Shown here piece after piece: positions 1-64,000 of a DNA stretch of 64,000 nucleotides. Source of the DNA: Branchiostoma floridae (lineage: Eukaryota; Chordata; Leptocardii; Amphioxiformes; Branchiostomatidae); NCBI RefSeq assembly GCF_000003815.2, contig NC_049987.1:11864778-11928777 (forward strand). The letters run 5' to 3'. Under the pieces are notes generated by a model. The model made no database searches, had not been told where the DNA came from, and saw nothing but the letters and a program-made list of their open reading frames with translations. Made by a program: the position numbers and the translations under genes. Within the stretch, counting starts at the first letter, position 1. Every line of letters starts with the position of its first letter.

Positions 1-173
1 CATGTTGTTCATTTTCTTCACCATGTTGTGAAACACCACGGCCAGCACCACGGCGGAGGCGAACACCGAACCACTCCCAGGACCGACCCGAGCCGGCCGG
101 CCGCGCGCTCACGGCGGGAGACTCTTTCAGACACCGGCGGGCCGTAAGGCGTGCGCAACTTCTCCGAACTCAT
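1..173 (-). pseudogene. N-terminal exon fragment of a type II membrane collagen (A/B type), cut by window edge
   Basis: Reading leftwards from an ATG at 173-171, the sequence gives a start beginning MSSEKL, a Pro-Tyr-Gly motif and a basic SRRER stretch. It then runs into sequence matching the membrane-segment coding of genes A and B (shared 'caccacggcggaggcgaaca' at 50-69). Compared with A and B, the membrane-segment region is shorter by a number of bases that is not a multiple of three, so the frame is lost before the hydrophobic core is complete. This is therefore either a decayed first exon or a real exon with an assembly error. The rest of the gene, if present, lies left of the window. 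The upstream flank (1200-1330) resembles the 5' flank of gene A, which supports a duplicated gene start. Confidence 0.55.
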
Positions 174-2683: not shown

Positions 2684-5600
2684 TCACTTGGTGCAGACGA
2701 CACAGGTGAGCTCCCTCCCTTCCACGTAGTTAGGACACGGCAGGGGCCCACAGCGGGCTTCCACTGGGTAGAACAGCGCTCCGTTCTGGTTGGCGTGTCC
2801 GCCTGTTACGGCCTCAGGCTGTTCATCCACACAGACGTACTCTTTTGCAGCGGGGTGGTTGTAGTGACCAGCCATGAGGTAACCATCGTACTCCTGGGTC
2901 CAGCCGGTGGGGCAGATGTTACGGGCGGGGATCATCAACTTACTGCCGCGGGTTGGGACGTAGCAGACCGCACACGGGACGTCGTCATCGTGAAGGGAGG
3001 TGGAGCCAAACGGGACATTTGTGTCCAACTGGTACTCAGCTCCATACATGAAAGCCCTCGCATGATGGACTCCATCTTGGTACCTCCCCCACTGTGGGTT
3101 GGTGGGCAGACACTGGTAGTTGGTCCCGCCGCCTGGCTGGTTATGATCCGTACCTCCTGCTACACCTGAGAGGAGATACACATAGATATTTGTCAAGTGA
3201 AAAGGATGAAACAATTATCATCATCTTTATAGACTTACGACTCTTAACAACAATATAGGGCAAAAGACCGCGCCGTGCCGATAAGTGAAAGAAAACAATC
3301 GATCCTAAATTTGGTCGTAGCGTGCTGTCATATGCTGAAGAGAAACAATCCATGCATACACGAAACAATTAATGTCGTATATATGCTAACCATCTATAGA
3401 ACAAATAACGTTCATACTACATGTTCAGATATGAGAAGACCTTACCAGAGTAGACAGTCGTTGTTCCAGAGCGACAAGTCTTCTTGCCCCAGCGGGTGTA
3501 AACAGCACCTCCTGTACAACAAAGGGGTAAGTGATGATGAATTTATTTTCTGCCTTTGGCTTTGTATCGCCAGAATCAAGTAAACAAATCAATGTTCCCA
3601 GTAAAGTATTCCAGTAAAGTATACCAATCTAACATATCCCATCGACGAATTTGCTTTGAAACTTTTAGGTATTGTAACAGATCCAAACACGACATGCGTC
3701 TGCTAAAAGAGCATGCACATATATCACACATGTACCCTCACCTACTCCGTTGTTAGCCGACGTTCCATGTTCGCCTTTTTGCCCTTTGGCCCCTTGCAAT
3801 CCAGTTTCTCCTTTAGACCCCTTTGCTCCTAGAACAAATAGGTCTTGCCAATATACACATGTGACAACAAGTATTACTCGAGATAGAACGGGTTTACGAG
3901 CCAACGTTACAATGCAGACTATCTGGGAGATGGGATAAAAGATGTACAGTGCGTCGGTCGAAATGCAAAGCTGAACAGTTGTGCGAAAATAAAGGTTTAC
4001 TTATCCATACCAAGGACGTTATATATAATGTCCTTGTCCATACCTTCTCCTGGTTCCCCGGTTGACCCAATGTCTCCTTTCTGTCCGGGGTCGCCCTGTT
4101 AAAAGCAGACCGTAAATGTTACCAAGTCTTCATGACTGTTGTCGACAAAACATAACGACATCAAACAAAGTTTAAACACGTGAAGTTTAGGACAGATCTG
4201 AAAAAAGTTCTTTATCTATAAAACAGAAGTTTTTAGAAAGCCGTCCGTATTATTTTGCTTATCGGTAAATAGTGGTGCACCTGGAACACAGCAGCAATCT
4301 GAAACAGAGCATTTTCGAAAACGTAGTTTGGTTTTAACATATTAATATGAAGCCTGGCTTCATTTCAGAATTCTGCTATGGATGCTCTCATCTGACAAAT
4401 GAGTTATCTGCTCCGGGTGCTGTTCTACCTCACCTTCAGTCCCGGGGCTCCCGCCACACCGTCCCGTCCGTCCCGACCGTCCCGTCCCGCTTGGTTTTGA
4501 CAACAACCTGTAAAGGAGCAGGAGTTAGAAAGCTCGCATTCCTCATGGCATTCTGATTTGAGAAGAGGAAATCCAACAAGACCTCATATCCTAAGTAATA
4601 TGCTAAATACGTCAACTTAACTTGTATTATGTGCGTGTGGACCAGACTCTTTCCAAAACACGTGTTCCAAAAAGTCCAAGTGCTCCAGAGATATTATCGC
4701 AGCAAAATATACGCATCTCATCTCATCTACTTATAATCACACAACTGAATAGTTCAAATTACGCATGACCACATTCATGCCCATCAATTCTGGAGGAACA
4801 AACACATCTTGAAAAAAAATGTACCTAATCCAAGTGGAATTCGGACCGAGTTGGGCGCATCTCTCTTAGACCGTTTGTGCCCTTCCATCGTGGCGTTGTT
4901 GTTCTGTACCCCGGAGTCAGTCTCACCGACTGGCCCAGGCTGTTCTCCCTCAGGGCTCTGCACAGAACCGGTCAGGTAGGACGAAATGATACCTCAAGTC
5001 AATAGGTCATGTTTACTCACGTACTAGCTGTAATTTTGTGGACAGAACAGTGGTGGAAAGCAAAAAGCAAACGCACAATGTATTGGCAAAAACGAGCTTG
5101 TAGACTAAACATGCACCATACCTAGCAAGACGATGTGAGGCCTAAAAAGAGCAATGATTGCCCTGCTAGCTGGTTGCACTAGTCTGTCTCACAAACTTGA
5201 TAAATACCTATATATGATATAAACATTGAAACTTCATATCTTGTAACTACTTCTACTGTTGACTACATGCCTACTTACAGCAGACGTTTGTTCGGCGTAG
5301 TTTGGTGGCAAACCCCCGACTCGGATCTGTGTTTCCAGCACGACAATCCGCTCCCTCAGAGACAGGACCATGGCCATGTCGTCGTGATCTCTCTGTGCCA
5401 GGGCTAGGAGCTTGGTTATCTCTCCGTCGCTTTTCTCAGCCTTTACTTGTAGTTTAGCTATCTCCTCTTGATCTCTGTCAGCCCTCAGCTTGCAGCTCTC
5501 AGTCGTCACAGTAAGGATAGCCACCTTTTCTTGTAGTTTAGCCATTTCTTCTTGATCCCTCTCCACCTTAGCCCGGAGGTTCCCCATCTCATGACCGATG

Positions 5601-5755
5601 TTCTGCACGATCACGGCCAGCACCACGGCGGAGGCGAACACCGCGGCGGCGCCGAGAACACCGACGAGCGAGCCGAGCGGGCCGCCCGTGCGCTCCCGGC
5701 GGGTGCTTCTCTCTGGCATGGTGAGGTGACCGTAAGGAAGCTTCTCAGTCGTCAT
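2684..5755 (-). CDS. Gene A: type II membrane collagen with C4-like C-terminal domain
   Basis: Seven exons on the minus strand: 5755-5279, 4957-4825, 4507-4434, 4095-4044, 3828-3742, 3511-3446, 3165-2684. All borders are GT/AG, phases match, and the sum of 1371 bp gives 456 residues. Exon 1 encodes a basic tail (RSTRRER), a hydrophobic segment at about residues 28-50, and a coiled coil rich in RDQEE and KLQ. Exon 2 has an N-A-T glycosylation sequon and a furin-type KRSKR site (residues 187-191, bases 4862-4876). Exons 3-5 encode Gly-X-Y repeats, including GRDGRDGRDG. The last two exons encode the C4-like domain with 10 conserved cysteines, ending CVVCTK. Basic residues before the membrane segment suggest the C-terminus is extracellular. 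The 87-bp phase 1-1 exon 5 is absent from the other copies. Function is unknown; a shed, trimeric matrix or pattern-recognition molecule is inference. Confidence 0.85.
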
Positions 5756-6522
5756 TCTATACCGGTTTTGATAGTTAGTAAAGGTGTATAAGGTCTAGTG
5801 TGGCTCGTGACGGAGCAAAGATTGTCCCACCCGACAGTTCGGACGGCTCGGATCTCAATGAGGAAACAGACTTCGCCGCTGGTAGAAGTTATATCAAGCC
5901 AATTAACTCAGTCTATTGTTATAGATTACCACTTGCAACATCCCAAGGCAAGACTGGATATCAACAAAGTACATGTAATCTGTGATTTTATCTTTGAACT
6001 ATGATATTTATATTTGTTCTCATTTGTACAAGGGCGTCAGAAAAATCTTTACGCCTCAAAACATTTACGAATTCTGCCCAAGCAATCGGTGTGCCAGATT
6101 CAGAGATACTCTATTTATTCTTTCTATCGATCGGTGTTTTTAACTCCATGAAAAATGGAGGTTTACTTTTTGGTGTGTCTGTGATTCCGGATATGTGTTG
6201 TCAGCATAATCTTTTTAACATCATGGTGGATTGTAATGATACATTTTGTATCATAGTTCAAAGGTAGAATGCCAAACAAATTGACTTGTTGTTATCCAGT
6301 TTTGCCTCGGGGTGTTGCAAATGACTTGCCAGGTTATCTACGACAATAGTAGGGCTGCGCTTATCCGAGTTTAATTGACTTGACCTGATCTATACCTGCG
6401 AGCTTGGTCTGTTTCCTCATTGAGATTCGAGCCTTCCGAACTGTCGGTTGGGACAATCTTTGCTCCGTCACGAGCCACACTAGGTCTTATCTACCTGTAC
6501 TAACTACCACTTCTGGTGTAGA
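5756..6522. promoter_or_regulatory. Divergent intergenic region between genes A and B with ~250-bp inverted repeat
   Basis: Only 767 bp separate the two start codons. The two halves are mirror images. The sequence from 5756 to about 6010 matches the reverse complement of about 6235-6522, for example 'gtgtggctcgtgacggagca' at 5799-5818 and its complement ending at 6480, and 'tttgaactatgata' at 5993-6006 against 'tatcatagttcaaa' at 6249-6262. Each arm therefore carries the proximal promoter and 5' UTR of one gene. No clear TATA box was identified. The arrangement indicates an inverted duplication that included the promoter. Confidence 0.7.
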
Positions 6523-9421
6523 ATGACGTCCGAGAAGCTTCCTTACGGTCACCTCATGCCGGAGAGAAGCACCCGCCGGGAGCGCACGGGCGGCCCGCTC
6601 GGCTCGCTCGTCGGTGTTCTCGGCGCCGCCGCGGTGTTCGCCTCCGCCGTGGTGCTGGCCGTGATCGTGCAGAACATCGGTCATGAGATGGGGAACCTCC
6701 GGGCTAAGGTGGAGAGGGATCAAGAGGAGATGGCTAAACTACAAGAAAGGGTGGCCATCCTTACTGAGACGACTGGGAGCTTTAAGCTGAGGGCTGAGAA
6801 AGACCAAGAAGAGATGACTAAACTACAAGAAAAGGTGGCTATCCTTACTGGTACGACTGAGAGCTTTAAGCTGAAGGCTGAGAGAGATCAAGAGATGACT
6901 AAACTACACGAGAGTGTGGCTACCCTCAAAACAGCAGCCGAGAGAGATCACGATGACATGGCCAAACTCCAAGCTCGGGCCGAGAGAGACCAGGAGGTGT
7001 TTCTGTCCCTGAGGGAGCGGATTGTCGTGCTGGAAACACAGATCAGAGGCGGGAGTTTCCCACCAAACTACGCCGAACAACAAGAACCACCTGATGTAAG
7101 TAGTCATATAATGCTAGTGGGGTGGTAACGGAATTACACCGAATAAGTGCCTGTTGCACAAAGCCTACCATGCATGGCCTCCCGACCTTCCCACAACCAT
7201 GGTTGGGAGCGGTTCGGGAGGTAGGTCGGCTGTGGTCGGCTGCGCCAGCCGAATGTTTTAATTGAAAATATGACTCTTAGACTGCCCCCGACCTACCGCT
7301 AACCTTGGTTGACTGGTGGTCGGGAGCTACGTTCGGCTAGATATGTGGTTACAGAGCTAGGTTAATTTTCATTACGGACTCTACAAACAGAAAGCCAACC
7401 ACAGTTATCTTCGATCCATACACGGTCCGGCTGGGCAGGCCCCGTCTATATTAAAGTAAACTACAAACCAAGGACTTTGGTTTTTCACAAAATACACAAG
7501 TAAAAATGACGTACTGACTAGTGGTATTCCTTCCTGCCCGACCACTTCTATGTAGACGCCTGAGGGAGAACAGCCTGGGCACGGGGTACAGGACAACAAC
7601 GCCACGGTGGGAGGACTTGCGCATGCGCACAGGCGCTCCAAGAGAGATGCTCCCGGCAACTCGCTCCGACTCCCACCCATATCAGGTATATCATTTTCAA
7701 CACGCATTTTTTCTTACAGAATGGGCATGAATGTGGTCGTGCGTAATTACCTTCGCCAGAATGGCAATGTTATGTTTTGTGTCTTGTGTCAACAGCATAT
7801 AACTAGAGTGGCTTTGGATGGATATTCATGATACATGTTTTGGTATTTGGGTAGCAGTTACAGAAAGGAAGGTCCTAGATCCTGTTTGAAAATGGTTTAC
7901 CTGACACTTCTGTCACACGAAATAGTTACAACTCACAATTCATCGACCTTGTACCCTTCAGGTTGCCCACAGGGACCGCCTGGTCCCGCGGGACGGGACG
8001 GGGTAGCAGGACGGGACGGACGGGACGGAGTCCAAGGCTCGGCCGGACCGACTGGACCGACCGGACCTGTCGGCTTACAGGTGCGAAACTTATCCTGCTT
8101 TGACGTTAGAAATTGTGTCGTTAACGCATTAATAGAGTAGGTTTATTTGCAAGTTCTTGCCGGAGGGCTAATTGCAACATGGAACATACAAAATATACAT
8201 GTATAGTAAACATACATAAGATAAAAGACTTTGGTATAGATAACAATGGTGACAAGTGGAAACGAGTGACTATTCTATCAATGTTATGGACTGCTGAGAG
8301 CTAAGAACTAAGCATTTGGGGTTTGACATATTTTCTGGAAGCAGTGGAAGATGATTATTAATATTGGAAAGGTTTTTATGGCATTGCAGGGTTTTACTTT
8401 TTTCACTATTTCAGGGTCCAGCCGGGGACAAGGGAGACACAGGGCCACCGGGAAGAGACGGGGCGCCAGGCGCAGGTGATGACTTCTTTCATTGTTGTTA
8501 ATCGAATATAACGTTACATTCACCAAAACTACTTTCACCAAAACCTGGAGTTTCATGTGGCTGGCTAGCTCCATTTAGGAACGTCGCACTTCATGTAGAT
8601 GCAATATTAGATAGAAGTAGATACTGCAAGTAACACTTCTTTTTACAATCTATCCAGGAGGAAGTGTGTACACCCGATGGGGGAGGAAGACTTGTGCTGA
8701 TAACAGCGGAGCAGAGCTGGTGTACTCGGGTAGGGTGTTTTTACCTGTATTACTAAATTTTGTTATGTTTTGTTGAATATAAAATGCAATGATTTAGCTT
8801 TGATGCCATATTCTATCAGCTGTACCACACTGCCAGTTCCACAAGTTAACTTTTGAGGTGGTATGCAATGAACAACATTTACCAAAGATCTCACTATGTC
8901 TAGATGCTCAAACGTCTGGGAAATTTTGTTTGATCTCAGGTGTGGCAGGAGGTACGCATTTCAGTCATCCAGGCGGCGGGACCAACTACCAGTGTCTGCC
9001 CACCAACCCACAGTGGGGGAGGTACGAAGATGGAGTCCAAGGGACCAAGGCTTACATGTACGGTGCTGAGTACCAGTTGGACAGAAACGTCCCGTTCGGC
9101 TCCACCTCCCTTCTCGATGACAACGTCCCGTGTGCGGTCTGCTACGTCCCAACCCGCGGCAGTAAGTTGATGATCCCCGCCCGTAACACCTGCCCCACCG
9201 GCTGGACACAGGAGTACGATGGCTACCTCATGGCTGAGTACTACAACCACCCCGGTGCTACAGAGTACGTCTGTGTGGATGAACAGCCGGAGGTGATACA
9301 GGGTGGACACGCCAACCATGACGGCGCGCTGTTCTACCCCGTGGAAGCCCGCTGTGGGTCCCTGCCGTGTCCCCACTATGTGGAAGGGAGGGAGCTTACC
9401 TGTGTCGTCTGCACGAAGTGA
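6523..9421 (+). CDS. Gene B: type II membrane collagen with C4-like C-terminal domain
   Basis: Six exons: 6523-7095, 7556-7685, 7962-8080, 8415-8475, 8658-8729, 8940-9421. They total 1437 bp (478 residues) with consistent phases 0/1/0/1/1. The 191-residue first exon carries the same tail and membrane segment as gene A, then a coiled coil of repeated [15 protein letters not shown] units that is longer than A's. Exon 2 carries a sequon (NAT) and RRSKR at residues 217-221, a good furin site. Exons 3-4 are Gly-X-Y with several GRDG units. Exon 5 encodes [10 protein letters not shown]. Exon 6 encodes the cysteine-rich domain ending CVVCTK. Exons 1-2 resemble gene A, but exons 3-6 and their adjoining introns are nearly those of C, D, E and G, so the gene looks chimeric. 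Polyadenylation probably follows AATAAA at 9567. Confidence 0.88.
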
Positions 9422-27295: not shown

Positions 27296-30200
27296 CTACT
27301 TCGTGCAGACGACACAGGTGAGCTCCCTCCCTTCCACGTAGTTAGGACACGGCAGGGACCCACAGCGGGCTTCCACGGGGTACATCAGCGCCCCGTTATG
27401 GTTGGCGTGTCCGCCCTGTACGGCCTCAGGCTGTTCATCCACACAGACAAAATCTTTAGCACCGGGGTGGTTGTAGTAACCAGCCATGAGGTACCCATCG
27501 TACTCCTGGGTCCAGCCGGTGGGGCAGGTGTTACGGGCGGGGATCATCAACTTACTGCCGCGGGTTGGCACGTAGCAGACCGCACACGGGACGTTGTCGT
27601 CGTGAAGGGATCTGGAGCCGAATGGGTAGTTTGTGCTCAATTCGTACTCTGCTCCGTACATAAAGCTTTCGACCCTTGGACTCCATCTTGGTACCTCCCC
27701 CACTGTGGGTTGGTGGGCAGACACTGGTAGTTGGTCCCGCCACCTGGATGACTGTATGCTGTACCGCCTGCCACACCTGAGATCAGTTACAAGATGACCC
27801 AGACGTTTGAGCATACAAGTCTAGTCAAGTCTTTTGTCAATATTGCTCATTGAATACCACCTAAAGAGTTTACTTGTGGACTGTGGTACAGCTAATAGAT
27901 TATGACACCAAAGCTAAACAAATGCCGTTTGTATTCCACAAAACATACAGTACATATGTAAATCTTACCCGAATACACCAGCTCTGCTCCGCTGTTACCA
28001 GCACAAGTCTTCCTCCCCCATCGGGTGTACACACTTCCTCCTGGAGAAATTGATTATAAAAAAGGCGTTACTTGCAGTTTCTAATAATATTACATCTACA
28101 TGAATTGCGACGTTCCTACGTGGAACTAAGTAGCCAAAACATGAAAGTAGTTTTGATGAATGCATGATTTAAACTAGAAAGGCCGACATTTGCTTGGGTG
28201 CAAATACAGCATATTTCAGCCATACCCATTCCCACGCAACATTGGACTGTTCCAAGTCACCCCTGCGCAAAAATGCAATATTTAATGTAAGTTATCCCCA
28301 AAAGAGAACTAATATTGTGAATTGATTCCATGTCAAAACAGAGCTTGCCCAATATGCCCCGGGCCCATATGGAAGAATATAATCTTCCACAGGAGCGCCT
28401 ATGCATAACTGATTGGTTTTTAGAATTGCGGCAGCTCCTATTTTTCCGAGAGTGAAAAAAAAACGCATCTTCCATTCAGAAGATTTTCGTCATGAAATTA
28501 CATGACGCCATTCAACAATTTCCACTTCGATAACTAGGTCTAAGTACCGTCATAATCTCCTTGTGATGTGGGTGCATTTATTATTGCAGTGAACTTTTTT
28601 TTAAGCAAGTAGGGCATACGTTTTAATAATTGTCAGGTGCAGGTACTGTGTAGTAGGAGTGTTGTTGTTTTTTTTCAAGCTAAAAACTTCAATCTTCTTC
28701 TTGTTTTGTATGAGCCATTACATAAACGGAGACGTCTCGAAATTTTACAAGAATTTTACCACCCTGTCGCTTCATTTCTTTTCTGAAAAATCCCAGGACG
28801 AACAAGTTAACTTGATTTGGCTTTATCTATATATTTCATTTTCCTTCGAATTCTTTGTTAAGTATATGCCCCTGCATACCACTGTTAAATTGTTTTACTT
28901 TGTATGCAATCAGCCATCGGACGTAATCTTGTCTGAGTGTTATAATTTCCTGCTCGTAGCGTGCGAGACCTGGAGGATAGGTGTTTCTACTTTGTTCGGG
29001 GGTTTCTTTTCGGAGGTCAGTGGTGATACTCTGGTATTGAGAGTGTTTTATTGGGCTCAAACTCTGGCAGTTTAAAGTTACTTACAATTTGAATGTACAA
29101 AGTTTACGTCAAAAAAGAACAACAACAACACTAGAAGTACCTACATTTGTTCGGGGAAAAATACATGCATTCTCGCCACTGTCAAACTTACGTATCAAAA
29201 CTAAACGCAAGCCGTCCAATTTTCCCTGTCCAAATCTGCCGAAAATGATTGATAGTGCCATGCGGAATGTTGGTAAATTCATCGACACTAACGTTCAATG
29301 CACGCGTACCGTCCGCTACCGCTCAAATGACCCTGTCTGAACTCCAAATCCTCGCAAACTACAATTTCAAACCCGGCAAAGGGGACCATATGGCCACTGT
29401 AAGGCTGTAATATGCATCTGTTTGTGTATATACGGGATTGCAAGGCCCCGCTTATGAATATTAACTAGCATTCGCCTTTCTCGTCGCTGATTGGCTGGCG
29501 TCCATAAAGTAATTATCTCTCGCTCTCCCCAGACCGCTGGCACCTGGCACGTGTGGGCTCTGGGGTCACTGGAGTTCACGGCAGGAAGCCGAAAGAAAAC
29601 CAATTTCCCCTCAGAAAAGCGCTGAAATTAAGCATTTTAAAGTAGTTTATGCCCAAAATTTTACTTGGATCATTTTACCAACTATCTAATGCCTATCTAC
29701 ACCAAATTTAAGGTCATTCCATTGTAATTCAAGGGAACAGGGGGCCACAATATACCGTTTTGGTCAAAACATGACCTTTAAACTTCAATAAAATCATTTT
29801 AGAGGCAGATATAAAAAAAATGAGAAAACAGCACCTCGGTATTGACCCACTCTACCCTTGTGCCAAATTCCAGGTCATTCGGTCACGGAACGACGGAGAT
29901 GAATCGCTTTGAAGATTTGACAGGAGAAAGAAAGAAAGAAAGAAAGAAAGAAACATTACGAATACAATATATTTCACCATACCATATATGGTATGGCTGA
30001 AATATAAAAAGTGTAAGATGTTGTCACCGTCTCTTCCCGGTGGCCCCGTGTCTCCCTTGTTCCCGGCTGGACCCTGACATAGTGACAAAAGTAAAACCTT
30101 GCTTTACTTTGTTTGCAATTAGCCGTCGGCCATGAACTTGCACTTTAAAATCATTATATTTCAGCCATACATAGTATGGTGAAATATATTGTATTCGTAA

Positions 30201-33200
30201 TGTTTCTTTCTTCTTTCTTTCTCCTGTCAAATCTTCAAAGTGATTCATCTCCGCCGTTCCTGGACCGAATGACCTGAAATTTGGCACAGGGGTAGAATGG
30301 GCCAATACCTTGATCCTTTTTTCTCAGTTTTTTCATATCTGCCTCTAAAATGATTTTATTGAGATTTTTTGGTCAATTATAGACCAAAACTGTATATTTT
30401 GGCCCCTGTACCCTGGTATTACAACCAAATGAGCTGAAATTTGACAGAGATGTGCCTTGATAATGCTTCCATATAAATTCGATAACACTTTTGGTGTACA
30501 GTACAACAAAATGCTTATTTTTGCGATTTTTTGACCAATTTTTGACCAAAAAAGGACACTTTTGGCCCCTGTACCCTGGTATCACAACCAAATGAGCTGA
30601 AATTTGACAGAGATGTGCCTTGATAATCCCTTCATATAAATTCAATAACACTTTTGGTGTACAGTGCAACAAAATGCTTATTTTTGCGATTTTTGGCCAA
30701 TTTTTGACCAAAAAAGGACACTTTTGGCTCCTGTACCCTGGTATTACAATTAAATGACCTGAAATTTGGTATAGATAGGCATTAGATACTTGGTAACAAG
30801 ATTCAAGTAAAATTTTTGACATAAACAACTTTAAAATGATTAATTTTGGCACTTTTCTGAGGGGAAATTTGTTTTCTTTTGGCCTCCTGACGTGACCTTC
30901 CGTGACCCCGCACAGAGCCACACCTGTGCGCGTCAGCCGGAGAGTTAATTGAATCAAAGACCTAGCCAATCAGCGAAGAGGAGGCCAAAGGCTAATTAAT
31001 ATTCATAAGCGGGGCCTCATGATCCCGTATATAGCAGTGTTCCCGCCAGGGGGAGCGAAGCCTGCCTAAGGCTCTCGCATTTTAGACTATTCAGAAGGCT
31101 TTATATTGTATCAGTTCTTAGGGGCATATCTATGATAATCGCAGCAGTCACTTAACTTCTCTTCAGGAGTTTAGCGTAACACTATTTCAGGTCAAACCGT
31201 CAAAGGCAACTAAAACAAACTTTAACGTTACTGAGTTCAACAGTACTTATAACTTGTTATCCGAAGTTGAAATGCTAGCGATGGTATTTTCGCTGCGCTG
31301 TTAGCTCCGTGCGACTGTTGTTGACGGTCTTATAACGGTATATTTTGCACCCCTGTACCCTGGTATGAGTAACATTTGGTATAGATAGGCATAAGATAGT
31401 TGGTAAAATGATCCAAGTAAAATTTTTGGCATAAAGTACTGTAAAAGGCTTAATTACAGCACTTTTTGTAGGGGAAATTGGTTTTCTTTCGTTCTCCATG
31501 CCATGACCTTTCGGACGTTCACCCCACAGAGCCGACATCTGCACCTGCGTCTAGCCGGCAGGAAGAGTTAATTCAATTAATGGTTCAGCCAATCAGCGAA
31601 GAGGAAAGCGAAGGCTAATTAATATTCATAAGCGGGACCACAGAATACGTTAACTTGAAGACTCAGGCCGTACAGACTTCTCGCCAGGATTTTTTCAAAG
31701 CGTCGGACAGGGGTCCGGGGGCCACCGAATGTCCCTGGCGGGGTCCAGGGGCAGGGCCACTGTGGGGGGGACCCAGGTGGGCGAAGCCCCCCCCGGAAGC
31801 TCTTGCATTTTAGACTATTGAGAAGGCTTCTTTTATCAGTTTTTTTAGGGCCATATCTACGATAATCGTAGCAGTCACTTACTTCTCTTTAGCAGTTTGA
31901 CTTTAAAATATTTCGGGTCAAAGCTTCAAAGACAACTAAAACCTCATAAACAACAAACTTTACTTAGCTCAACAGTATACAAAAATATTGTACGGGTTGC
32001 CATCCTTAGTTGAAGCGCTTATTTATAGCGCTAGTATCTTCGCTGCGCCGTTAGCCGCCATGCGACTTTTGTTGACGGTCTGATATCCCTACGTCGCCGC
32101 CTCGCTGATATTCCCACGGACATGTTTCAAGAAAAATACCCAGCAAAAAACGCTGTTCTACGTCAAATTCTATTCTATAAAACATGTGGGACTCAGTGTT
32201 ACAGTCTAGATATTTTGTAGAAGCTCCGCTGTAGGAAAGAAGGTCCAAGCAATGTAAAACATCACGTAGCATGAAGTTCGCTGTCAACTGGCACACAGCA
32301 CATGACTGTTTGAAACTCTAAGTCTAATCAACAGCCGTGTTTGATTGATAGCCGGCGGTCCTTTGATGAAGTCGGCGAAAGGTGCGTTAGTTAGAAAATC
32401 TGCGTTTAGTTTTGATACGTAATTATAAGTTAGACAGTGGCGAGAATGATTATTTTCTCATCAATATTTCTCTTCAGAATTATTTGAACTTAATTGTACA
32501 TCTAAACAATTGGCTTACCTGTGCAATGTTTATATGATTAATGATCAGTGTACTGAAATCATGTGTAACGTATGGCTCCTAGTCAATAGATCAGCATTTT
32601 TCTCTATAGTGACCACCTGTCTATAGGGGCCACATTTCTATCACTGGACTGGAACTTGCGAAATTAAAAACTGCTGTATTTTCTCCAGAGCAAATGTATG
32701 TGTTCCTAGTGCTGTTGTTGTTTGACATAAACTTTGAACATTTAAATTGTAAGTAACTTTAAACTGCCAGAGTTTCAGCCCAATAAAACACTCTCAGCGC
32801 CAGGGTATGAACAGACTGACCAGACAGACGAAAATAAATCCTCGAACAAGGTTCAATCGTATCTTCCGGGTCTGGCAGGACTGAGTTGTTAAACTAAAAT
32901 AAGAATAGGCTCGATGGCTGATTGCATACAAAGTAAAACAGTTTAACAGTTTTACAGCTTGAAGAAAACAAACGCTCCTACAGTACCTGCACCTGCTTGA
33001 TAATTATTAAATCGTATGCCCTACTTGAATAAAAAAAGTTCACTGCAATAATAAATGTACCCACATCACAAGGAGCTTATACTTTTTTAAACTTACACCT
33101 AGTTGTCGTACTGAAAATTGTTAATGACATTACATGAAGTCATTCAACAATTTTCAGTCATGATGAAAATTTTCTGAATGGAAGGTGTGATTATCGTCAT

Positions 33201-35097
33201 TTTCTGAAAAATAGAAGCAAGCTCTGTCTTTACCTGGAATCAATTCACAATACCAGTCCACTTTGGGGGATAATGTACTGTTAAGAGGATGTTCCATTTT
33301 TGCGCAGGGGTGATTTGGAACAGTCCAATGTTGCGTGGGAAGGGGTATGGCTGAAATATGCTGTATTTGCTCTTAAGCAAATGTCGGCCTTTCTAGTTAT
33401 TATTATCATCATCATCATCATTATTATCATTATAACGATGACACCATTTTCAATGTGAAAGCTGGAAAAGTTCCGTACCTGTAGGCCGACAGGCCCGGTC
33501 GGTCCGGCAGGGCCTTGGACTCCGTCCCGTCCGTCCCGTCCCGCGGGACCAGGCGGTCCCTGTGGGCAACCTGCAGGGTACAAGATCCATGGGTTGTAAG
33601 TTGTAACTATTTCTTGACACAGAAGAGATGTGTCCTACAGCATCTTGATCAAAATGAACGTGGAGTTTCATCACCATTGTTCCATATTCAACAGTTGCCA
33701 TATTTTGTGATGTATTTACCAATTACATGTATGATCTTAGTACTTTTCTTTTTGCAAACACATGCACATAGCAACCAATCCCTTCTGATATTTCATGTAT
33801 TGCCCCTATTGTTGTGTTCCACAAATTCTAAAGACCATGCATAAATATGATTTAAGCCACCACAAACCTTTGTATTCATTAATAGTAAGTTCTTGTATCT
33901 ATTGACTACTCATGGTAATCAAGATATACAGGACACAGAATGGGTACACGGGAAATTCCAGAAAGGAAACCTTGTTTGTATGTATATGTGTAATCCTGTT
34001 TGATTTTTTTCATTGCAAATCAGACCTGGTACAAAATGCAGACCTCATTTTATTCAATCTGCTAGAGAACAATAAAAACGTAGTTAACAATGAAAACGTA
34101 CTCCCTCCCTGTCTCTTCACTCGCACGGAACCATGGTCCCTGTCGTCAGGCGTCATCAAACCGTCGTTCTGTTCAAATAGTGACAGAAAAGAAACATCAT
34201 GATCAGTGTCCTGAGTCCTGACACTTAAGAGTACGGTTATGATAAATATAGTCGTGTACGTGCGATGGAAAGGGTCTGGACCGACACTATTCAATAGTTC
34301 ACGTTTGGTGTTGAACTAGGGACAGAAGGGGCAGGCGTTACGCATTACACAATGACATGTACTACAAAAGATCAAGGGGCGTTACAGTAAAGCAAACTGA
34401 ATGGAATGGAGCTAAAAACTACAGTCACAGTCGAGTGTATTGGTCAATCAACATTGTCAGTTATTTTAGCCTAGCTGTTCAAGGTGTGTCAGGCCAGTGA
34501 GAATCAAGATGAAAAGATCTATGTAGCAAGTTAAGTTACTTTGATCATCAGTACCGGTAATTATTGGCACCACGTCCCGTTAGTAGTAGCGGGGAGGCGA
34601 CAATTTACATCCTACTACATCTCCCCGTCGAGTAGCGAATGCCGACCAAAATATGAAAATAGTAGGTTAAATAGAACTACAAGGAAGTACTCACCTCAGA
34701 CAAATCGGCGGCCTGGTCCTCACCAGGGAAGCCATGGAGGTTTCAGTCGAGTTGAAAGTTCAAAAATACTAAAACAGTAGTTGGTGTGGGATAATTGGTG
34801 TGGGAACTGAGCATATAAGGGCGCACTCACCTCAGACAGATCGACGGCCTGGTCCTCGCCAGCGAAGCCAGCTAAGAGGTTTTCCAGGACGGCAAGGCGC
34901 TCTCTAGCAGCGGTCAGCTCCTGCTTCACACCTGTCAGCTCCTGCTGCATGTTGTGCACCACCACCACCCCCGTCAGCACGCTGATCCCGCACACCAGGG
35001 CGGCCAGGACGCCGACCAGCGGCCCGACCAACACGGGGAGACGGTCCCGACGGGTCGGTCCACCGGACAGGAACGGACTCTGCTTCTCTGCGGTCAT
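27296..35097 (-). CDS. Gene C: type II membrane collagen, frameshifted in its last exon
   Basis: Six exons on the minus strand: 35097-34831, 34168-34102, 33570-33479, 30073-30028, 28040-27969, 27776-27296. Exon 1 gives MTAEKQSPF, the basic RRDR, a membrane segment at about residues 22-47 and a short coiled coil (QQELTGVKQELTAARERL). Exon 2 has RVKR followed by Q (residues 105-108). Exons 3-4 are Gly-X-Y. Exon 5 is the [10 protein letters not shown] exon. The final exon is 481 bp where A, B, D, E and F have 482. A base is missing near 27661-27668: the copies encode KAFMYG or KAYMYG, but here the reading frame shifts just before MYG. With that base restored the length would be 341 residues. This is a young pseudogene, a loss-of-function allele or a sequence error. 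The 3.4-kb third intron is full of repeats. Confidence 0.75.
29440..29640 (-). repeat. Copy 1 of a ~180-bp repeat ending in AT-rich 'taatattcataagcggg'
   Basis: Reverse-oriented relative to the copies at 30845-31025 and 31450-31645. All share 'aggggaaat', 'ttttctttc/tgg', 'gctgattggct' or its equivalent and 'attcataagcggg'. This is part of the large inverted-repeat complex. Confidence 0.55.
29840..30330. repeat. Inverted repeat flanking collagen exon 4 of gene C
   Basis: 'tgaagatttgacaggagaaa' (29910) with (AAAG)n and 'caccatacc' is matched in reverse by 'catagtatggtgaaatatat' (30173), (TTTC)n and 'ctcctgtcaaatcttcaaag' (30220). The spacer between the arms, about 30010-30150, contains the exon. 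Confidence 0.65.
29931..29953 (+). repeat. (AAAG)n microsatellite
   Basis: About six AAAG/GAAA units form part of the left arm of the inverted repeat around exon 4 of gene C. Confidence 0.7.
30395..30880. repeat. ~162-bp tandem repeat, about three units
   Basis: The phrase 'cctgtaccctggtat' recurs at about 30407, 30569 and 30731, a 162-bp period. Each is followed by 'gaaatttg' and (in the first two units) by 'cacttttggtgtacag'. A further diverged copy begins near 31345. The 198-codon open frame on the minus strand here is made entirely of this repeat and is not taken as a gene. Confidence 0.65.
30845..31025 (+). repeat. Copy 2 of the 'attcataagcggg' repeat
   Basis: Similar in order to 31450-31645 and inverted relative to 29440-29640. 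It ends 'ctaattaatattcataagcg'. Confidence 0.55.
31450..31645 (+). repeat. Copy 3 of the 'attcataagcggg' repeat
   Basis: It contains 'aggggaaattggttttcttt', 'agccaatcagcgaagagga' and 'ctaattaatattcataagcg'. It shares order and wording with copy 2. Confidence 0.55.
34687..34740 (-). pseudogene. Duplicated 3' end of a gene C-type exon 1
   Basis: Just downstream of gene C exon 1, a second copy of its last ~50 bases, with the splice donor, reads GEDQAADLSE then GTGAGT. It matches GEDQAVDLSE of exon 1 (34831-34890). No acceptor was recognised before it. It is probably a scrap of a duplicated exon, though it would be a usable donor. Confidence 0.5.
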
Positions 35098-36176: not shown

Positions 36177-39100
36177 CTACTTTGTGCAGACGACACAGGT
36201 GAGCTCCCTCCCTTCCACATAGTGGGGACACGGCAGGGACCCACAGCGGGCTTCCACGGGGTAGAACAACGCGCCGTTATGATCGGCTTGTCCGCCCGGT
36301 ACGGCCTCGGGCTGTTCATCCACACAGACGTACTCTTTAGCACCGGCGTGGTTGTGGTAACTAGCCATGAGGTACCCATCGTACTCCTGGGTCCAGCCGG
36401 TGGGGCAGGTGTTACGGGCGGGGATCATCAACTTACTGCCGCGGGTTGGGACATAGCAGACCGCACACGGGATGTTGTCATCCTGAAGGGAGGTGGAGCC
36501 GAACGGGAAGTTTGTGTTCAACTCGTACTCAGCTCCGTACATGTAAGCCTTGTACCCCTGTACACCGTCTTGGTACCTCCCCCACTGTGGGTTGGTGGGC
36601 AGACACTGGTAGTTGGTCCCACCGCCTTGCTGGGTGTAGTGGGTGCCTCCTGCCACACCTGAGAGCAAACAAGATGGTGTGTTACGCCGATGGGCGCTTA
36701 TACCTGATATATACTAAGTAGATACAGATACAGACAAAAAGAAGATTTCCCAGACGTTTGAGCATACAAATAAAGTCAGATCCTTGGCAAACGTAGTGTT
36801 CATTGCACATCACCTCAAGAGTTAACTTGTGGACCCGGCACTGTCATACAGCTAATAGAACATGGCACCGAAGCAAAACCAGTGTCGTCTGTATTCAAGA
36901 AGACAATAGGTAAAAAAAAACCTACCCGAGTACACCAGCTCTGCTCCGCTGTTATCAGCACAAGTCTTCCTCCCCCATCGGGTGTACACACTTCCTCCTG
37001 GAGAAATTGATTGTAAAAAGAGGCGTTATCTGATATCACATCTACCGTAGTGAATTGAGACGTTCCTACGTGAAGCAAGCCATCCAAAACATGAAAGTAG
37101 TTTTAATGAATGTACATATTTGATCAACAACAATGAAAGATGTTGTTACGTACCTGCGCCGTCTTTTCCCGGTTCCCCCGCGTCTCCCTTGTCCCCAGGT
37201 GGACCCTGAAATAGTGACAAAAGTAAAACTTTGTCAATGCAATACACGCCCCTTTGCTGTCAACTTATCAACGTCAATGTAACGATGGCACAATTTCAAA
37301 CGCGAAAGCAGGATAAGTTTCGCACCTGTAAGCCGACAGGTCCGGTCGGTCCAGTCGGTCCGGCCGAGCCTTGGACTCCGCCCTGCTACCCCGTCCCGTC
37401 CCGCGGGACCAGGCGGTCCCCGCAGGCAACCTGAAGGGTACGTATACAGTCAGGTCCATCGATTGTGAGTTGCAGATTTTTAATTTGCACATGCACATGC
37501 ACATGGATTTAAATGTTATGATGGTATTTGACATAAACAATTAAGAAAATTTCAAATCGCCGCCTTAGTTCTCCATAAAATTGTCCATAATAGTTCTTGT
37601 TTACCTCAACAATACAAAAGATCAGATACACATCACTACTATACAAGACAGCGAAATCTTTTAAAACTCATTATGACAAAAATCTAGTCAGAAAACAACA
37701 TACACACAACAAAGTTTAGAGGTCCAACCATACGGAACAATCCAAGCCAACTGCAACAATATCGCTTTTAATACCCAGTTAAAAAAAACATCTAAAAATA
37801 CATTTAATAAAACATCGAAGTATAACTTTAGGCGAACAGAGTAAACCATGAAAACTCACGCCCGGCCAAGGTTGTTCCGTCTCTCTTCACTCGCACGGAA
37901 CCATGGTCCCCGTCGTCGGACGTCCTCAAACCGTCGTTCTGTTCAAATTGTGACAGAAAAGAAACATCATGATCAGTGTCCTGACATTTAAAGCTTGTTT
38001 AATTGACGACTTCGGTTACAGGAAATATAGCCGTGTTTATGCGATAGGAAAGGTCCGGGGCGACAACATTCATGATAGTTCAGGGCCTTCACACTGAAAC
38101 AGAATCAGCGCGGGAATCGAGCAGAACCAGCTGGAATGAAGAATTGCAAAATTCGTGCCATGTTCGGGCGGAAATTACCTCGAGCTCTTCCCACGAGAGG
38201 CGGAATGAACCGGAATGCCTTCTGAATGATAATTGTTGTCTATTCCTTGGTATTCGTAGTACACTCTAGAAATTTGCACTGCATTCCAGATATTTTTGCG
38301 TTCATTCTTGTGGCCGGCTCTTCATCGAATGAGATCAGGATGTTTCGAATAATGTAGGAATGCCTTAGAATGCGGTCGTACTGCAGTTAGACTAGCTAGA
38401 AAACACTTTGAATGCCGTTCGATATTTCTCCACCTCAAAAGTTTTGAGCATAACAAAAACAGTCGGGACTACCACAAGAATAGGCACAGATATCTGGAAT
38501 GCAGTGAGAATTTCTAGAATACACTACGAATTCCCGGTATTATTGTTATAAGCTCCGGGTCCCACTCGTTGTGCGACAGGAAAGTGACAATTTAGTTTCT
38601 ACCAGAGTCCCGACAGGAGTTGCAAAAGTCAAATTAAAAGTCCATTAACCCGTCAGGGGACTGATCGTGCAAGGGCGTACTCACTTCAGACAGATCAACG
38701 GCCTGATCCTCGCCAGCGAAGCCTTGGAGGTTTTCTAGGACAGCCAGTCGCTCTCTAGCGGTGGTCAGCTCCTGCTGCAGACCCCTCAGTCCGGTATTCT
38801 CGGTCTGCAGGACTGATAACTCCCGCCTCACACCTGTCAGCTCCTGCTGCAGACCCCTCAGTCCGGTATTCTCGGTCTGCAGGACTGATAACTCCCGCCT
38901 CACACCTGTCAGCTCCTGCTGCAGACCCCTCAGTCCGGTATTCTCGGTCTGCAGGACTGATAACTCCCGCCTCACACCTGTCAGCTCCTGCTGCAGACCC
39001 CTCAGTCCGGTATTCTCGGTCTGCAGGATTGATAACTCCCGCCTCACACCTGTCAGCTCCTGCTGCAGATCCCTCAGTCCGGTATTCTCGGTCTGCAGGA

Positions 39101-39359
39101 CTGATAACTCCCGCCTCACACCTGTCAGCTCCTGCTGCAGATCCCTCAGTCCGGTATTCTCGGTCTGCAGGACTGATAACTCCCGCCTCACACCTGTCAG
39201 CTCCTGCTGCATGTTGTGCACCACCACCACCCCCGTCAGCACGCTGATCCCGCACACCAGGGCGGCCAGGACGCCGACCAGCGGCCCGACCAACACGGGG
39301 AGACGGTCCCGACGGGTCGGTCCACCGGACAGGAACGGACTCTGCTTTTCTGCTGTCAT
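36177..39359 (-). CDS. Gene D: type II membrane collagen with long repeat stalk; frame broken in collagen exon
   Basis: Six exons on the minus strand: 39359-38685, 37938-37860, 37430-37326, 37205-37154, 36997-36926, 36658-36177. Exon 1 (225 codons) has the MTAEKQSPF tail, the membrane segment, then six 24-residue coiled-coil repeats. Exon 2 carries RVKR at residues 241-244. Exon 3 is 105 bp where the equivalent in B is 119: compared with B and E, 14 bp ('tcccgtccgtcccg' on the + strand) are missing after 37380. The shift puts exon 5 out of frame and gives a stop there. All other joins are in phase, and the restored length would be 492 residues. The downstream C4-like exon is itself fully open, so the damage is recent or is an assembly error. 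An in-frame upstream ATG at 39401 exists, but MTAEKQ matches the paralogues. Confidence 0.75.
38240..38545. repeat. Inverted-repeat element in gene D intron 1
   Basis: 'attcgtagtacactctagaa' near 38251 and 'gcactgcattccagatat' near 38276 are matched in reverse by 'atatctggaatgcagtgaga' near 38490 and 'tctagaatacactacgaatt' near 38512. The middle is rich in GAATGC/GCATTC words. It is probably a non-autonomous transposon. Confidence 0.6.
38781..39212 (-). repeat. Coding 72-bp tandem repeat (six units) in gene D stalk
   Basis: Six near-identical 72-bp units each encode LQQELTGVRRELSV plus LQTENTGLR(G/D). The first begins MQQEL. Units differ at only a few bases (Asp/Gly at one codon, Val/Ile at another), so expansion is recent. 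Twenty-four residues is three heptads plus three. Gene F has one unit; C has only a partial related sequence and E lacks it. Confidence 0.9.
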
Positions 39360-40101: not shown

Positions 40102-40218
40102 CTACTTCGTGCAGACGACACAGGTGAGCTCCCTCCCTTCCACGTAGTTAGGACACGGCAGGGACCCACAGCGGGCTTCCACGGGGTAGAATAGCGCTCC
40201 GTTATGGTCGACGTGTCC
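40102..40218 (-). pseudogene. 3' fragment of a C4-like collagen terminal exon
   Basis: Reads, on the minus strand, the last ~38 codons of the conserved domain (from about [15 protein letters not shown] to CVVCTK and the stop). Sequence right of 40218 no longer matches, so the rest of the gene is gone. Its distance to gene D's start (743 bp) mirrors the spacing from C to D and from E to F, so it marks the truncated edge of a tandem duplication unit. Confidence 0.8.
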
Positions 40219-50985: not shown

Positions 50986-53900
50986 CTACTTGGTGCAGAC
51001 GACACAGGTGAGCTCCCTCCCTTCCACGTAGTTAGGACACGGCAGGGACCCACAGCGGGCTTCCACGGGGTAGAACAGCGCGCCGTTATCGTTGGCTTGT
51101 CCGCCTGTTACGGCCTCGGGCTGTTCATCCACACAGACGTACTCTTTAGCACCGGGATGGTTGTAGTGACCAGCCATGAGGTAGCCATCGTACTCCTGGG
51201 TCCAGCCGGTGGGGCAGGTGTTACGGGCGGGGATCATCAACTTACCGCCGCGGGTTGGGACGTAGCAGACCGCACACGGGACGTCGTCATCGTGAAGGGA
51301 GGTGGAGCCGAACGGGACGTTTCTGTCCAACTGGTACTCAGCACCGTACATGTAAGCCTTGGCCCCTTGACGCCCATCTTCGTACCTCCCCCACTGTGGG
51401 TTGGTGGGCAGACACTGGTAGTTGGTCCCACCGCCTGGCAGGTTGTGTGCTGTGCCTCCTGCTACACCTGAGATCAAACAAGATTTCACAGTCGTTTGAG
51501 CAAACAGACATAGTCAGATCTTTGGTAAATATTATTCATTGAATGCCACCCCAAGAGTTAACTTGTGGGTCTGGCGTTGTAGTACAGGTAACAGAATATA
51601 ACACCAAAGCTAAACTGGTGCCGTCTGTATTCAGGTGAAAAACCTACCCGAGTACACCAGCTCTGCTTCGCTGTTACCAGCACAAGTCTTCCTCCCCCAT
51701 CGGGTGTACACACTTCCTCCTGGAGAACATATGATTACAAATAAGCGTTACTTGCAGTAACGTAACAATAATTATCTAATGTTACAGCTACATAAACTAT
51801 GACGTTCCTACATGGAGCTAGGCAGCCAAAGTGTGAAAGTAGTTTATGAATATATATTTGATCAACAGTACTAGTCACCTTCGCCTGGCGCCCCGTCTCT
51901 TCCCGGTGGTCCCGTGTCTCCCTTGTCCCCGGCTGGACCCTGACATAGTAATAAAGTAAAAACTGGTCAATGCCATATAACCCTATTTTGTATTGCCTCA
52001 TTCATATCAATATAACGATCGATGACATTTTTTAGCCATCAAAGCAGGATAAGTTCGGTACCTGTAAGCCGACAGGTCCGGTCGGTCCAGCCGAGCCTTG
52101 GACTCCGTCCCGTCCGTCCCGCCCTGCTACTCCGTCCCGTCCCGCGGGACCAGGCGGTCCCTGTGGGCAACCTGCAGGGTACAGTCAGGTCAATGGTTTG
52201 TTATTTGTAAATGCTTTTTGTGACAGAAGAGATAATTTGATTTTGAATATTTTGATTAAATTAAACATGAACATAAATTCCCATCACCGTTGTTCCATTT
52301 TCGCCAGTTATCGTGTTTTAATTATTTACCAATTAAACAGAGAGCTAATTATGTAATATTTTACTTAATTGTCCAACCGTAATTCATACCACTAATTACT
52401 TGATTATCCTACTGTATTGTTATCATTCTCTATGTATTACTGTACTTTATCATTTATGGATTGTAATCATTTTCATTTCGTTTAGAGGAGAAAAAAAAGG
52501 ACCTAGTGTAAGCTTTACATGCTTTTCCCTCCTCCTACACATATTTTATAAATCGTTTTCGCATTATGTTTTATGTAATATTTTGTTTGGCATATCTTTG
52601 AAAAAATCATTTACTGATCATTTATATGTCAAATGCAATCGAGGTAATAGATGACACAGTATTGGTACAAGAGAGGTTCCAGAAAGAAAAACTTGTCAGT
52701 ATGTGTAGTTCCCATTTGCTTTTTCCTTGCACAACAGAACTGGCACAAAATTTAGACTCGATTCAGTTCAATACATAAGATAACAACGTAGTAAATCGTC
52801 AAAACTCACGCCCGCCCAAGGCTGGCCCGTCTCTCTTCACTCGCACGGCACCATGGTCCCCGTCGTCAGGAGTCATCACACCGTCGTTCTGTTCACATTG
52901 TGACAGAAAAAGGACATCAATGTCACGATTACAGGAAATATACTAAGTAACTCCAGTATTTGCGATAGGAAAGACCCGCGGGCGACACCCATTCATGGTA
53001 GTTCACGTTTGGTGTTGAAGTAGGGACAAAAGGCACAGGTGGCGGTACGGAATACACATGTATTTTAAAGCAAAAGTATGAAGTTACAGCAAAAACAAGT
53101 GCTTTGAAAAAAGTTAGCATTTCGCCCAGGTTTGCCTGTGTGAAAGGTAATTGAACAAAAATGTGCAGGAGAAAGTTACTAACGGGCCGTTGACTCTAAA
53201 AAATATCATTTTGGACAACGCGCGTTTTTCCAGAAAATGGATATTGGACGAGAAAGCAGTTATGAAGTTGCAGCACTTCCTGTTGACTCAAGACTACAGC
53301 ACTTTAACTTAACTTTGTTCAGGTACAGCATATACGGTATGGTGATATAGAAAGTTTATTTTGCAAGTTTATGCCCTGATGCTAATTGCAAGTACGTGTA
53401 CATGTACATGGTGGAAACATAGAAGATATACATGTGACAATGATGAACATAATTGTAAAAAGAGGCTATTCGAATCCTAGTCTTGCCTATTTCTAAACAG
53501 GTTGGGATTGACTTCTTTTTTGGAAGCAAGGGAAAACGAAAAGCCCCACTTTTTTTACAATTCGTGCACTGGAAATCAGGTAATATGGCCATTTCAAGCA
53601 ATGTCAGAACCACATTAACAAGTATATGAGCAGAGGCATTTATCCAGCATGGCCTGAACAGGTCTGTTTGTTCATTCCAACAGCGGAAACATGCAAAAAA
53701 ACAAATCAAAAGTCGGTCTTGTTGTTCAGGTTGCAAGACGAAAGCATATTATATACAAAAACAGAAATAGGACATTTCGCCTCCCGCTGAATTCAAACTC
53801 AAATCTCTCGATGGGAGATTATGATACTCTAGTCACTGAGCTAGATTTTACTACATTAAAATCAATTTATTCCAACAGGTATGTTGTATAGATATGTATG

Positions 53901-54406
53901 GCATCGGTTGACAGAACAGATCCGCCCATTTCTTTCAATACGGAACCCTCTCTCTCTGGTCTCATATGACAAAATCTTAATCGAACGGGGCTAGTAACTA
54001 CACTTACTACAGTCATGATTGAGTATCGATCCACAGTACCATACGTTTTGTTTTGACACACCAGTTCACAGACATTCAAGATGAAGACCCCCCCTCCCGT
54101 CACAGGGTTGAAAGAATCGGCCAAAGTATGGCAGGGAGTATCATGTAAGGGAGTACTCACTTCAGACAGATCGACGGCCTGGTCCTCGCCAGTGAAGCCA
54201 GCGAAGAGGTTTTCCAGAACAGCCAGGCGCTCTCTAGCAGCGGTCAGCTCCTGCTGCATGTTGTGCACCACCACCACCCCCGTCAGCACGCTGATCCCGC
54301 ACACCAGGGCGGCCAGGACGCCGACCAGCGGCCCGACCAACACGGGGAGACGGTCCCGACGGGTCGGTCCACCGGACAGGAACGGACTCTGCTTCTCCGT
54401 TGCCAT
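50986..54406 (-). CDS. Gene E: type II membrane collagen with C4-like C-terminal domain
   Basis: Six exons on the minus strand: 54406-54161, 52888-52810, 52171-52062, 51939-51879, 51719-51648, 51467-50986. The sum of 1050 bp gives 349 residues, with all phases intact. Exon 1 starts MATEKQSPF and has the shortest stalk of the family (MQQELTAARERLAVLENLF). RVKR precedes Asp at residues 98-101 in exon 2. Exons 3-4 give about 57 residues of mostly Gly-X-Y, with GRDG repeats. The final two exons carry the conserved cysteine-rich domain with 10 cysteines. It is the cleanest complete copy of the C-F type and a good reference for the family. Its promoter region is shared with C and D. Confidence 0.88.
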
Positions 54407-62969: not shown

Positions 62970-64000
62970 CTACTTGGTGCAGACGACACAGGTGAGCTCT
63001 CTCCCGTTCACGTAGTTAGGACACGGCAGGGACCCACAGCGGGCTTCCACGGGGTAGAATAGAGCACCGTTATGGTCGGCCTGTCCGCCTGGCAATGCCT
63101 CGGGCTGTTCATCCACACAGACGTACTCTTTAGCACCTGCATGGTTGTGGTAACTAGCCATGAGGTACCCATGGTACTCCTGGGTCCAGCCGGTGGGGCA
63201 GGTCTTACGGGCGGGGATCATCAACTTACTGCCGCGGGTTGGGACGTAGCAGACCGCACACGGGACGTCGTTATCGTGAAGGGAGGTGGAGCCGAACGGG
63301 ACGTTTGTGTTCAACTCGTACTCAGCGCCGTACATGTAAGCCGCACCTTGGACTCCATCTTCGTACCTCCCCCATTGTGGGTCGGTGGGCAGACACTGGT
63401 AGTTGGTCCCACCGCCTGACCGGTTATGTGCTGTGCCTCCTGCTACACCTAAGATCAAACAAGATTTCACAGTCGTTTGAGCATCTACACATATATAGTC
63501 AGTTCTTTGGTAAATATTGTTCATTGAATGCCACCCTCAAGAGTGGACCTGGCACTGTGTTGCAGCTAATAGAATGTGACACCAAAGCTAAAACGGCGCA
63601 GTTTGTATTTAACTAAACATACATGTGAAAAAAACTTACCCGAGTACACCAGCTCTGCTCCGCTGTTATCAGCACAAGTTTTCCTCCCCCAACGGGTGTA
63701 CACACTTCCTCCTGGAGAAATTGTTGACAAAAAGAAGCGTTATTGGAAGTAACGTAAGTTACATCTAACGTCAAATCGTGATGTTCCTAAGTGACTCGTA
63801 GCAAGGCAGTCTATAAGACATGAAGGGAGTAACGTTAGGCAAAGTATGTATTTGATTAACAAAAATGTCAATGAATGAAGTTCTCACCTGCGCCAGGCGC
63901 TCTGTCCCTTCCAGGTGGCCCTGTGTCTCCCTTGTCCCCAGGTGGACCCTGCCATTGTGATGATAGAGCTATTAGCACAAGAAAACCCATGTCAGGGCGA
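62970..64000 (-). CDS. Gene G: membrane collagen with C4-like domain (3' part only)
   Basis: The last three exons are in the window: 63948-63888 (Gly-X-Y), 63711-63640 ([10 protein letters not shown]) and 63448-62970 (cysteine-rich domain, ending CVVCTK). All are in phase. The last exon is 479 bp because one codon is missing (QGAAYMYG where others have QGxKAYMYG). The collagen exon has Arg where a Gly is expected (GRDRAPG for GRDGAPG), which interrupts the triplet pattern. The 5' exons lie beyond the right edge. Confidence 0.85.

Follow-up and report, generated by a model that had tools for sequence, protein, structure and literature searches.

Spongin short-chain collagens, also called 'short-chain collagen C4', join a short Gly-X-Y region to a C-terminal head of NC1 type that, in the passages of the source compared here, has 10 Cys residues (seven in common with collagen IV and three of its own) and lacks the HSQ motif (PMC5395295). 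The same passages report short-chain collagens of this kind from Branchiostoma floridae and Ciona, and state that vertebrates lack the branch of short-chain members within the collagen IV family (PMC5395295). For Nematostella, four spongin-like proteins are given in the excerpt used of a second study (PMC12549020). In collagens XIII, XXIII and XXV (membrane-associated collagens with interrupted triple helices, MACITs), as the sections compared describe them, folding is driven by a coiled coil and runs from the N- to the C-terminus, and a convertase site lies just before the first COL domain (PMC7848082). Features of both formats occur together in a gene family found in 64,000 nucleotides of B. 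floridae contig NC_049987.1 (positions 11,864,778 to 11,928,777; the whole stretch is called the window below), which holds seven copies (A, B, C, D, F, G and H) and a head fragment (E). The products are probably furin-site precursors of spongin-type short-chain collagens, in which a stalk would trimerise the chains and a cut would release an NC1-headed trimer.

Genes were modelled by assembling exons via canonical GT/AG splice sites with matching phase, and splicing in vivo is presumed from these signals. Five of the seven copies (A, B, F, G and H) are intact, and C and D have one frame break each. The number seven had been given in a preliminary description made from the sequence of the window, together with a layout claimed for every complete copy, and this layout holds in the five intact copies. 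From the N-terminus it comprises a basic end, a single hydrophobic segment, a stalk with a heptad pattern, an R-X-K-R-bearing linker, Cys, a Gly-X-Y block, and a 10-Cys head. The best 19-residue Kyte-Doolittle mean is 2.56–2.59 in the six copies whose exon 1 lies inside the window, and 28–31 residues, several of them basic, precede this best segment; hydropathy windows above 1.6 start at 24–37 in A and B and at 18–33 in C, D, F and G. A heptad pattern exceeding that of shuffled sequences (p 0.002–0.025) and the R-X-K-R motif were each found in 7/7 window copies. Gly-X-Y triplets number about 15 in C, 19 in A (in two blocks), 19 in F, 20 in B, 22 in G and 23 in H, and the block of D is cut by its frame break. 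In D, 6.2 repeats of a 72-bp unit (38764–39211) make the stalk longer.

Copies A (minus strand, 7 exons, 456 aa) and B (plus strand, 6 exons, 478 aa) form a head-to-head pair with stop codons at positions 2684 and 9421, respectively, and start codons separated by 767 bases. The pair sits within an inverted duplication, the longest arms of which are 281 nt, 94% complementary and 834 nt apart. Exons 1–3 of copy H lie just beyond the window edge in flanking DNA (L040); the join is in frame and the resulting gene is open (390 aa). The genome searched amounts to 513 Mb in 431 contigs, the window being on the contig labelled C9 in this analysis, and L-numbers denote family loci outside the window elsewhere in the same genome. 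Two unlike types of first exon are present, type 1 in A and B and type 2 in C, D, F, G and H. Strong matches to type 2 were found at six loci, all within the window cluster; type 1 occurs also at 11.74 and 23.2 Mb of C9 and on C8, C12 and C19, and relatives that match weakly lie on C4 and C6. The cytoplasmic tails of A, B and L041 contain YGHL, which we take to resemble a YXX-phi sorting motif, and type-2 tails are devoid of it.

The head is the NC1 domain of spongin short-chain collagens, a known type, and as modelled by AlphaFold it has a collagen IV NC1-type fold. The heads of A, B, F, G and H contain 10 Cys residues. When 42 heads were aligned, eight Cys columns were invariant and a ninth was conserved in at least 90% of the rows; the tenth Cys is encoded in the preceding exon, included by only six of the 42 rows. 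There is no HSQ motif at the start of the second module in the rows shown, nor at the start of the first module in the six rows covering it. The AlphaFold model of the copy B head matched collagen IV NC1 end to end in a VIA-align comparison against 230 chains, other folds being outside that set; the PDB entries among the matches listed number 14, and all are collagen IV NC1. Like NC1, the head is an internal duplication of two C4-like modules, and its hhalign comparison with collagen IV NC1 gave a score of 32.2, with 40/40 shuffles below. The preliminary description had likened the head to 'short-chain collagen C4', and the modelled fold, the 10 Cys residues and the absence of HSQ bear this out; we assume that the likeness extends to sponge and cnidarian members. 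Pfam has no model for the head, and it is the fold comparison that gives collagen IV NC1.

In other searches, Pfam returned no family for member 1 and scattered weak matches to five families, the commonest being crustacean neurohormone (2/42 heads). With five heads as queries against the sequences of solved structures, CadC (E 2) was the sole match, and a Pfam scan at E up to 1 gave no TNF or olfactomedin family. No relatives were confirmed in viral contigs and prokaryote genome contigs. Identification of the head as part of an ordinary collagen IV gene was rejected, since the 60 genome matches of Pfam C4 all lie away from head loci.

Judged from the translations, the window copies would share with spongin short-chain collagens the short Gly-X-Y region and the C-terminal NC1 with 10 Cys residues and no HSQ, and VIA-align and hhalign both relate their NC1 to that of collagen IV. 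They add a type II anchor, a stalk and R-X-K-R, which are not described in the passages compared (PMC5395295). The four proteins in the Nematostella excerpt stand against at least 52 nearly full-length head exons (one with a stop) in this genome. The fold and the two C4-like modules are common to the window head and collagen IV NC1. Collagen IV has a very long collagen domain with a 7S end, whereas the window copies have only about 15–23 triplets and are unmatched by Pfam C4.

The head exon has 77 genome matches, the 52 just mentioned starting at residue 1 or 2 of 160 and reaching at least residue 148, and heads are clustered at C9 11.86–11.94 Mb, C9 23.18–23.24 Mb, and on C2, C13 and C16. The local expansion proposed earlier is thus seen in the window cluster of seven but is not only local. 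Upstream DNA was read for part of the 77 matches, and the architecture counts that follow cover those. Class I (anchor, stalk, R-X-[KR]-R) comprises 15 copies (A, B, C, D, F, G, H, L039, L041, L043, L062a, L063, L064, L065 and L067). A collagen exon comes next in 12/15 and none was found in L064, L065 and L062a; a fusion joins L062a to a head fragment, and L067 lacks a nearby head match. Class II (anchor, short stalk, RERR) consists of two divergent L061 copies on C16, in which the site exon runs into the head without collagen. Class III (signal peptide, stalk, RNKR or RNRR, collagen) is made up of L062b plus two L077 copies, and order is the only ground on which heads are assigned to these three. 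Class IV (signal peptide, collagen and head in a single open frame without introns) includes three C2 copies (L059 and L023), possibly retrocopies, that have neither stalk nor site. Class V comprises signal-peptide heads with no collagen seen and without R-X-[KR]-R (C13 and C9 17.4 Mb). First-exon matches at C9 23180767, C9 11944566, C4 27042982 and on C18, and some weak ones, are outside these counts. At L067, on C12, a type-1 stalk, site and collagen (4545–6221) precede a reverse transcriptase (RVT_1 E 1.6e-36). As anchor, stalk, site and collagen are each present in some forms and absent from others in one genome, the family provides a natural experiment on the roles of stalk, cut and helix in making an NC1 trimer.

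R-X-[KR]-R lies between the stalk and the collagen or head in 20/20 resolved copies of classes I–III, i.e. in 17/17 anchored copies and 3/3 signal-peptide copies with a stalk, the two L061 copies without collagen included. It is present in 0/3 of the intronless, secreted and stalkless class IV copies. In the 20 copies, P4 and P1 are Arg throughout, P2 varies between Lys (17 copies) and Arg (three), and P3 may be S, V, N, R, Q or E. The informative count is that 0/20 lack the motif while the adjoining residues vary. When each of nine linkers was shuffled, the motif appeared with a probability of 0.02–0.27 per linker; the product across five linker types is 3.6e-7, a figure that presumes an independence which related copies do not have. 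Two C13 signal-peptide heads have weaker basic sites (MRKR-N and RVVR-Q) that fall outside R-X-[KR]-R and were not counted. No site was seen in L066, the exons of which, like those of the two C13 heads, are only partly resolved. L042 (assembly gap), L068 and L078 (N-termini) were excluded from the count.

The site tracks the stalk rather than the membrane segment, being present in class III and absent from class IV; hence, the predicted cut is most likely removal of an N-terminal propeptide, with membrane shedding as one special case. A motif serving shedding alone was dropped as an explanation, because soluble signal-peptide copies carry it too. Of the sheddable membrane set envisaged in the preliminary description, the furin-type site thus stands in all seven window copies, but its tie to the membrane does not, as the three stalked signal-peptide members show. 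The coiled coil that it assumed is seen as a heptad pattern (p <0.05) in 15/19 stalks, those of the window among them, but not in four outside it.

The window copies are predicted to share with the MACITs a type II anchor, a coiled coil and a convertase site ahead of the first COL domain, as far as the latter are described in the sections compared (PMC7848082). MACITs have several COL domains flanked by non-collagenous ones, whereas the window copies have one short block (two in A) and an NC1-type head, and in relatives of the window copies the anchor is swapped for a signal peptide. Ectodysplasin A and gliomedin end in a TNF and an olfactomedin domain, respectively, in contrast to the window head, which is of NC1 type over its whole length. 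Ectodysplasin A and the colmedins, which include gliomedin, resemble the window layout in the type II anchor, short collagen and secreted ectodomain, according to the sections compared (PMC7848082). Among the literature matches listed, no title or abstract opening names a membrane-anchored or convertase-cut short-chain collagen. The head type is known. None of the literature passages compared describes the convertase-site precursor (anchored or secreted), the collagen-less version or the module swapping. The family ties the short-chain branch of collagen IV to the furin-released membrane-collagen format in a chordate.

In the mechanism that we propose, the N-terminus of the window members would serve as a type II signal anchor, and a coiled-coil stalk would come next. 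The stalk would gather three chains, the short Gly-X-Y block would fold to a triple helix, and the Cys residues directly ahead of it could tie the chains together. Two C4-like modules would build the head at each C-terminus, with an NC1-type fold like that of collagen IV. Cutting of R-X-[KR]-R between stalk and collagen by a furin-like convertase would then remove the N-terminal propeptide and free the mature product, a trimer that combines a short helix with three NC1-type heads; in the anchored members this would amount to shedding as well. The freed product is most likely a component of the matrix or surface coat, or a ligand.

Several results weigh against this reading. Single collagen IV modules aligned with the head in hhalign at only 23.7 and 16.9 (shuffle maxima 25.3 and 16.9, respectively), and the N-terminal half of the head alone was marginal (19.1 versus 17.7 for the shuffle). 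Just one of five AlphaFold models is confident, the others reaching 50.7 at most, and Z is below 8; a run on a five-head input had a pLDDT of 28.3. Pfam C4 (PF01413) matches 0/42 heads at E up to 10. In a profile search of solved structures with the 42 heads, collagen IV Viking stood among five rows (E 0.24–0.25), below an unrelated top row. As regards the site, the motif itself served to locate the rows, and the constancy of P4, P2 and P1 is therefore partly built in. The 20 copies are mutually related, and five of them (C, D, L039, L062a and L067) are disrupted elsewhere. The site is read from a sequence motif, which does not prove cutting. The heptad signal is weak in L064 (p 0.238), L065 (0.305), L062b (0.068) and L077a (0.108); two of the three signal-peptide stalks being weak, a coil-trimerising propeptide is least supported where the membrane segment is absent.

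Stalk and head exons have different histories. Copy B and L041 on C8 are 98% identical in the first 60 residues and 92% at third codon positions there, as compared with 64% and 52% in the head. The reverse applies to B and its neighbour F, with 34% of residues and 47% of third positions identical in the N-terminus and 88% and 87% in the head. The head exon of A has 88–94% identity with its counterparts in B, D, F, G and H, whereas the intron before it aligns at 0.71–0.79, no better than shuffled sequence (about 0.75); its 3' flank aligns at 0.71–0.77, with no shuffle of its own. Synonymous change is nearly gone in codons 61–90 of the head exon (pS 0.07 and 0.02). The discordant identities of first exons and heads, and a similarity limited to the exon, fit recombination of stalk and head exons between loci by exon swapping and exon-limited gene conversion; for codons 61–90, unusually strong synonymous constraint would be a weaker alternative. 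The family may therefore also be informative on the part of exon swapping and conversion in the assembly of matrix genes. A bolder but doubtful view is that cephalochordates made the sponge-type short-chain collagen into a modular, convertase-activated family with interchangeable propeptides (anchored or secreted) and NC1 heads recombined across many loci, in which the cut would serve as a switch and the freed trimers would perhaps pair head to head in a network outside the basement membrane.

The anchored forms might instead stay uncut and serve as membrane-bound collagenous adhesion molecules or scavenger-type receptors. The YGHL tails of A, B and L041, presumably YXX-phi-like, would suit such a role, and class A scavenger receptors, in the sections compared, are likewise type II proteins with a collagenous part (PMC7848082). 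However, occurrence of R-X-[KR]-R in every resolved anchored copy and in soluble and collagen-less members as well, together with the modelled NC1 fold of the head, makes an uncut receptor unlikely.

A role in defence, which the preliminary description had offered, found no support. A large clustered expansion with frame-broken copies and mixing of stalks and heads could be expected of a defence or recognition set, but pooled pN/pS in the heads of six window copies is 0.38, with no sign of positive selection, and the sole stretch of the heads with a ratio above 1 has a pS of 0.024. The pooled value indicates that the heads are kept and not diversified, and diversifying selection was dropped on this ground; the cluster heads look homogenised. 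A defence set is thus an improbable account of the family.

If the hydrophobic segment of the window copies were a cleaved signal peptide, there would be no anchored stage. Relatives at C9 23.2 Mb and on C2 do begin with apparently ordinary signal peptides, but the partly basic stretch of 28–31 residues upstream and the length of the hydrophobic region argue for an anchor in the window copies and make cleavage there rather remote. That membrane and head exons belong to separate neighbouring genes is hardly credible: despite the DNA-only basis of the models and the differing histories of first exons and heads, exon order and orientation are kept at the C4, C6, C8, C9 and C16 loci and phase too in all window copies.

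The precursors of spongin-type short-chain collagens inferred in the window are laid out as follows.

Table 1. Positions of the short-chain collagen copies, their parts and the head fragment in the window.
Feature	Position	Strand	Content
Copy A exon 1	5279..5755	-	cytoplasmic tail, membrane segment, heptad stalk
Copy A exon 2	4825..4957	-	KRSKR site at 4862-4876
Copy A exons 3-5	3742..4507 (4434-4507, 4044-4095, 3742-3828)	-	Cys-Cys start and Gly-X-Y
Copy A exons 6-7	2684..3511 (3446-3511, 2684-3165)	-	10-Cys NC1-type head, stop at 2684
Copy B exon 1	6523..7095	+	tail, membrane segment, heptad stalk
Copy B exon 2	7556..7685	+	RRSKR site at 7631-7645
Copy B exons 3-4	7962..8475 (7962-8080, 8415-8475)	+	Cys, then 20 Gly-X-Y triplets; Pfam Collagen E 9.1e-9
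Copy B exons 5-6	8658..9421 (8658-8729, 8940-9421)	+	head; AlphaFold2 model matched to collagen IV NC1
Copy C	27296..35097	-	six exons; RVKR site in 34102-34168; last exon frame-broken
Copy D	36177..39359	-	six exons; RVKR site in 37860-37938; frame break in exon 3, the first collagen exon (37326-37430)
Fragment E	40105..40218	-	C-terminal 38 head residues; tblastn found no 5' exons belonging to it
Copy F	50986..54406	-	intact, 349 aa; RVKR site in 52810-52888
Copy G	55564..58556	-	intact, 379 aa; RVKR site in 57742-57838
Copy H, last three exons	62970..63948 (63888-63948, 63640-63711, 62970-63448)	-	
L039 (next copy leftward), 5' end	1..173	-	first exon read in two frames; RRRKR site further left

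By eye, at 29955–30200, exon 4 of copy C is flanked by inverted-repeat arms, as if it lay in or beside a small mobile element.

Three other genes, all on the plus strand, lie between the copies. Amidase-looking exons at about 10170–18620 gave one Pfam Amidase match (E 7e-4), below the curated cut-off, and belong to a gene that we take to be FAAH-like. Exons of a type I phosphodiesterase/nucleotide pyrophosphatase at 21071–24925 matched Pfam Phosphodiest in two exons (E 4e-69 and 5.6e-10), and this gene is presumably ENPP-like. At about 41250–46850 are exons that probably encode a transporter of the major-facilitator type; their two MFS_1 matches (E 5.1e-8 and 0.0047) fall short of the curated cut-off. 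A short-unit repeat in this region, at about 43600–44020, is open in several frames.

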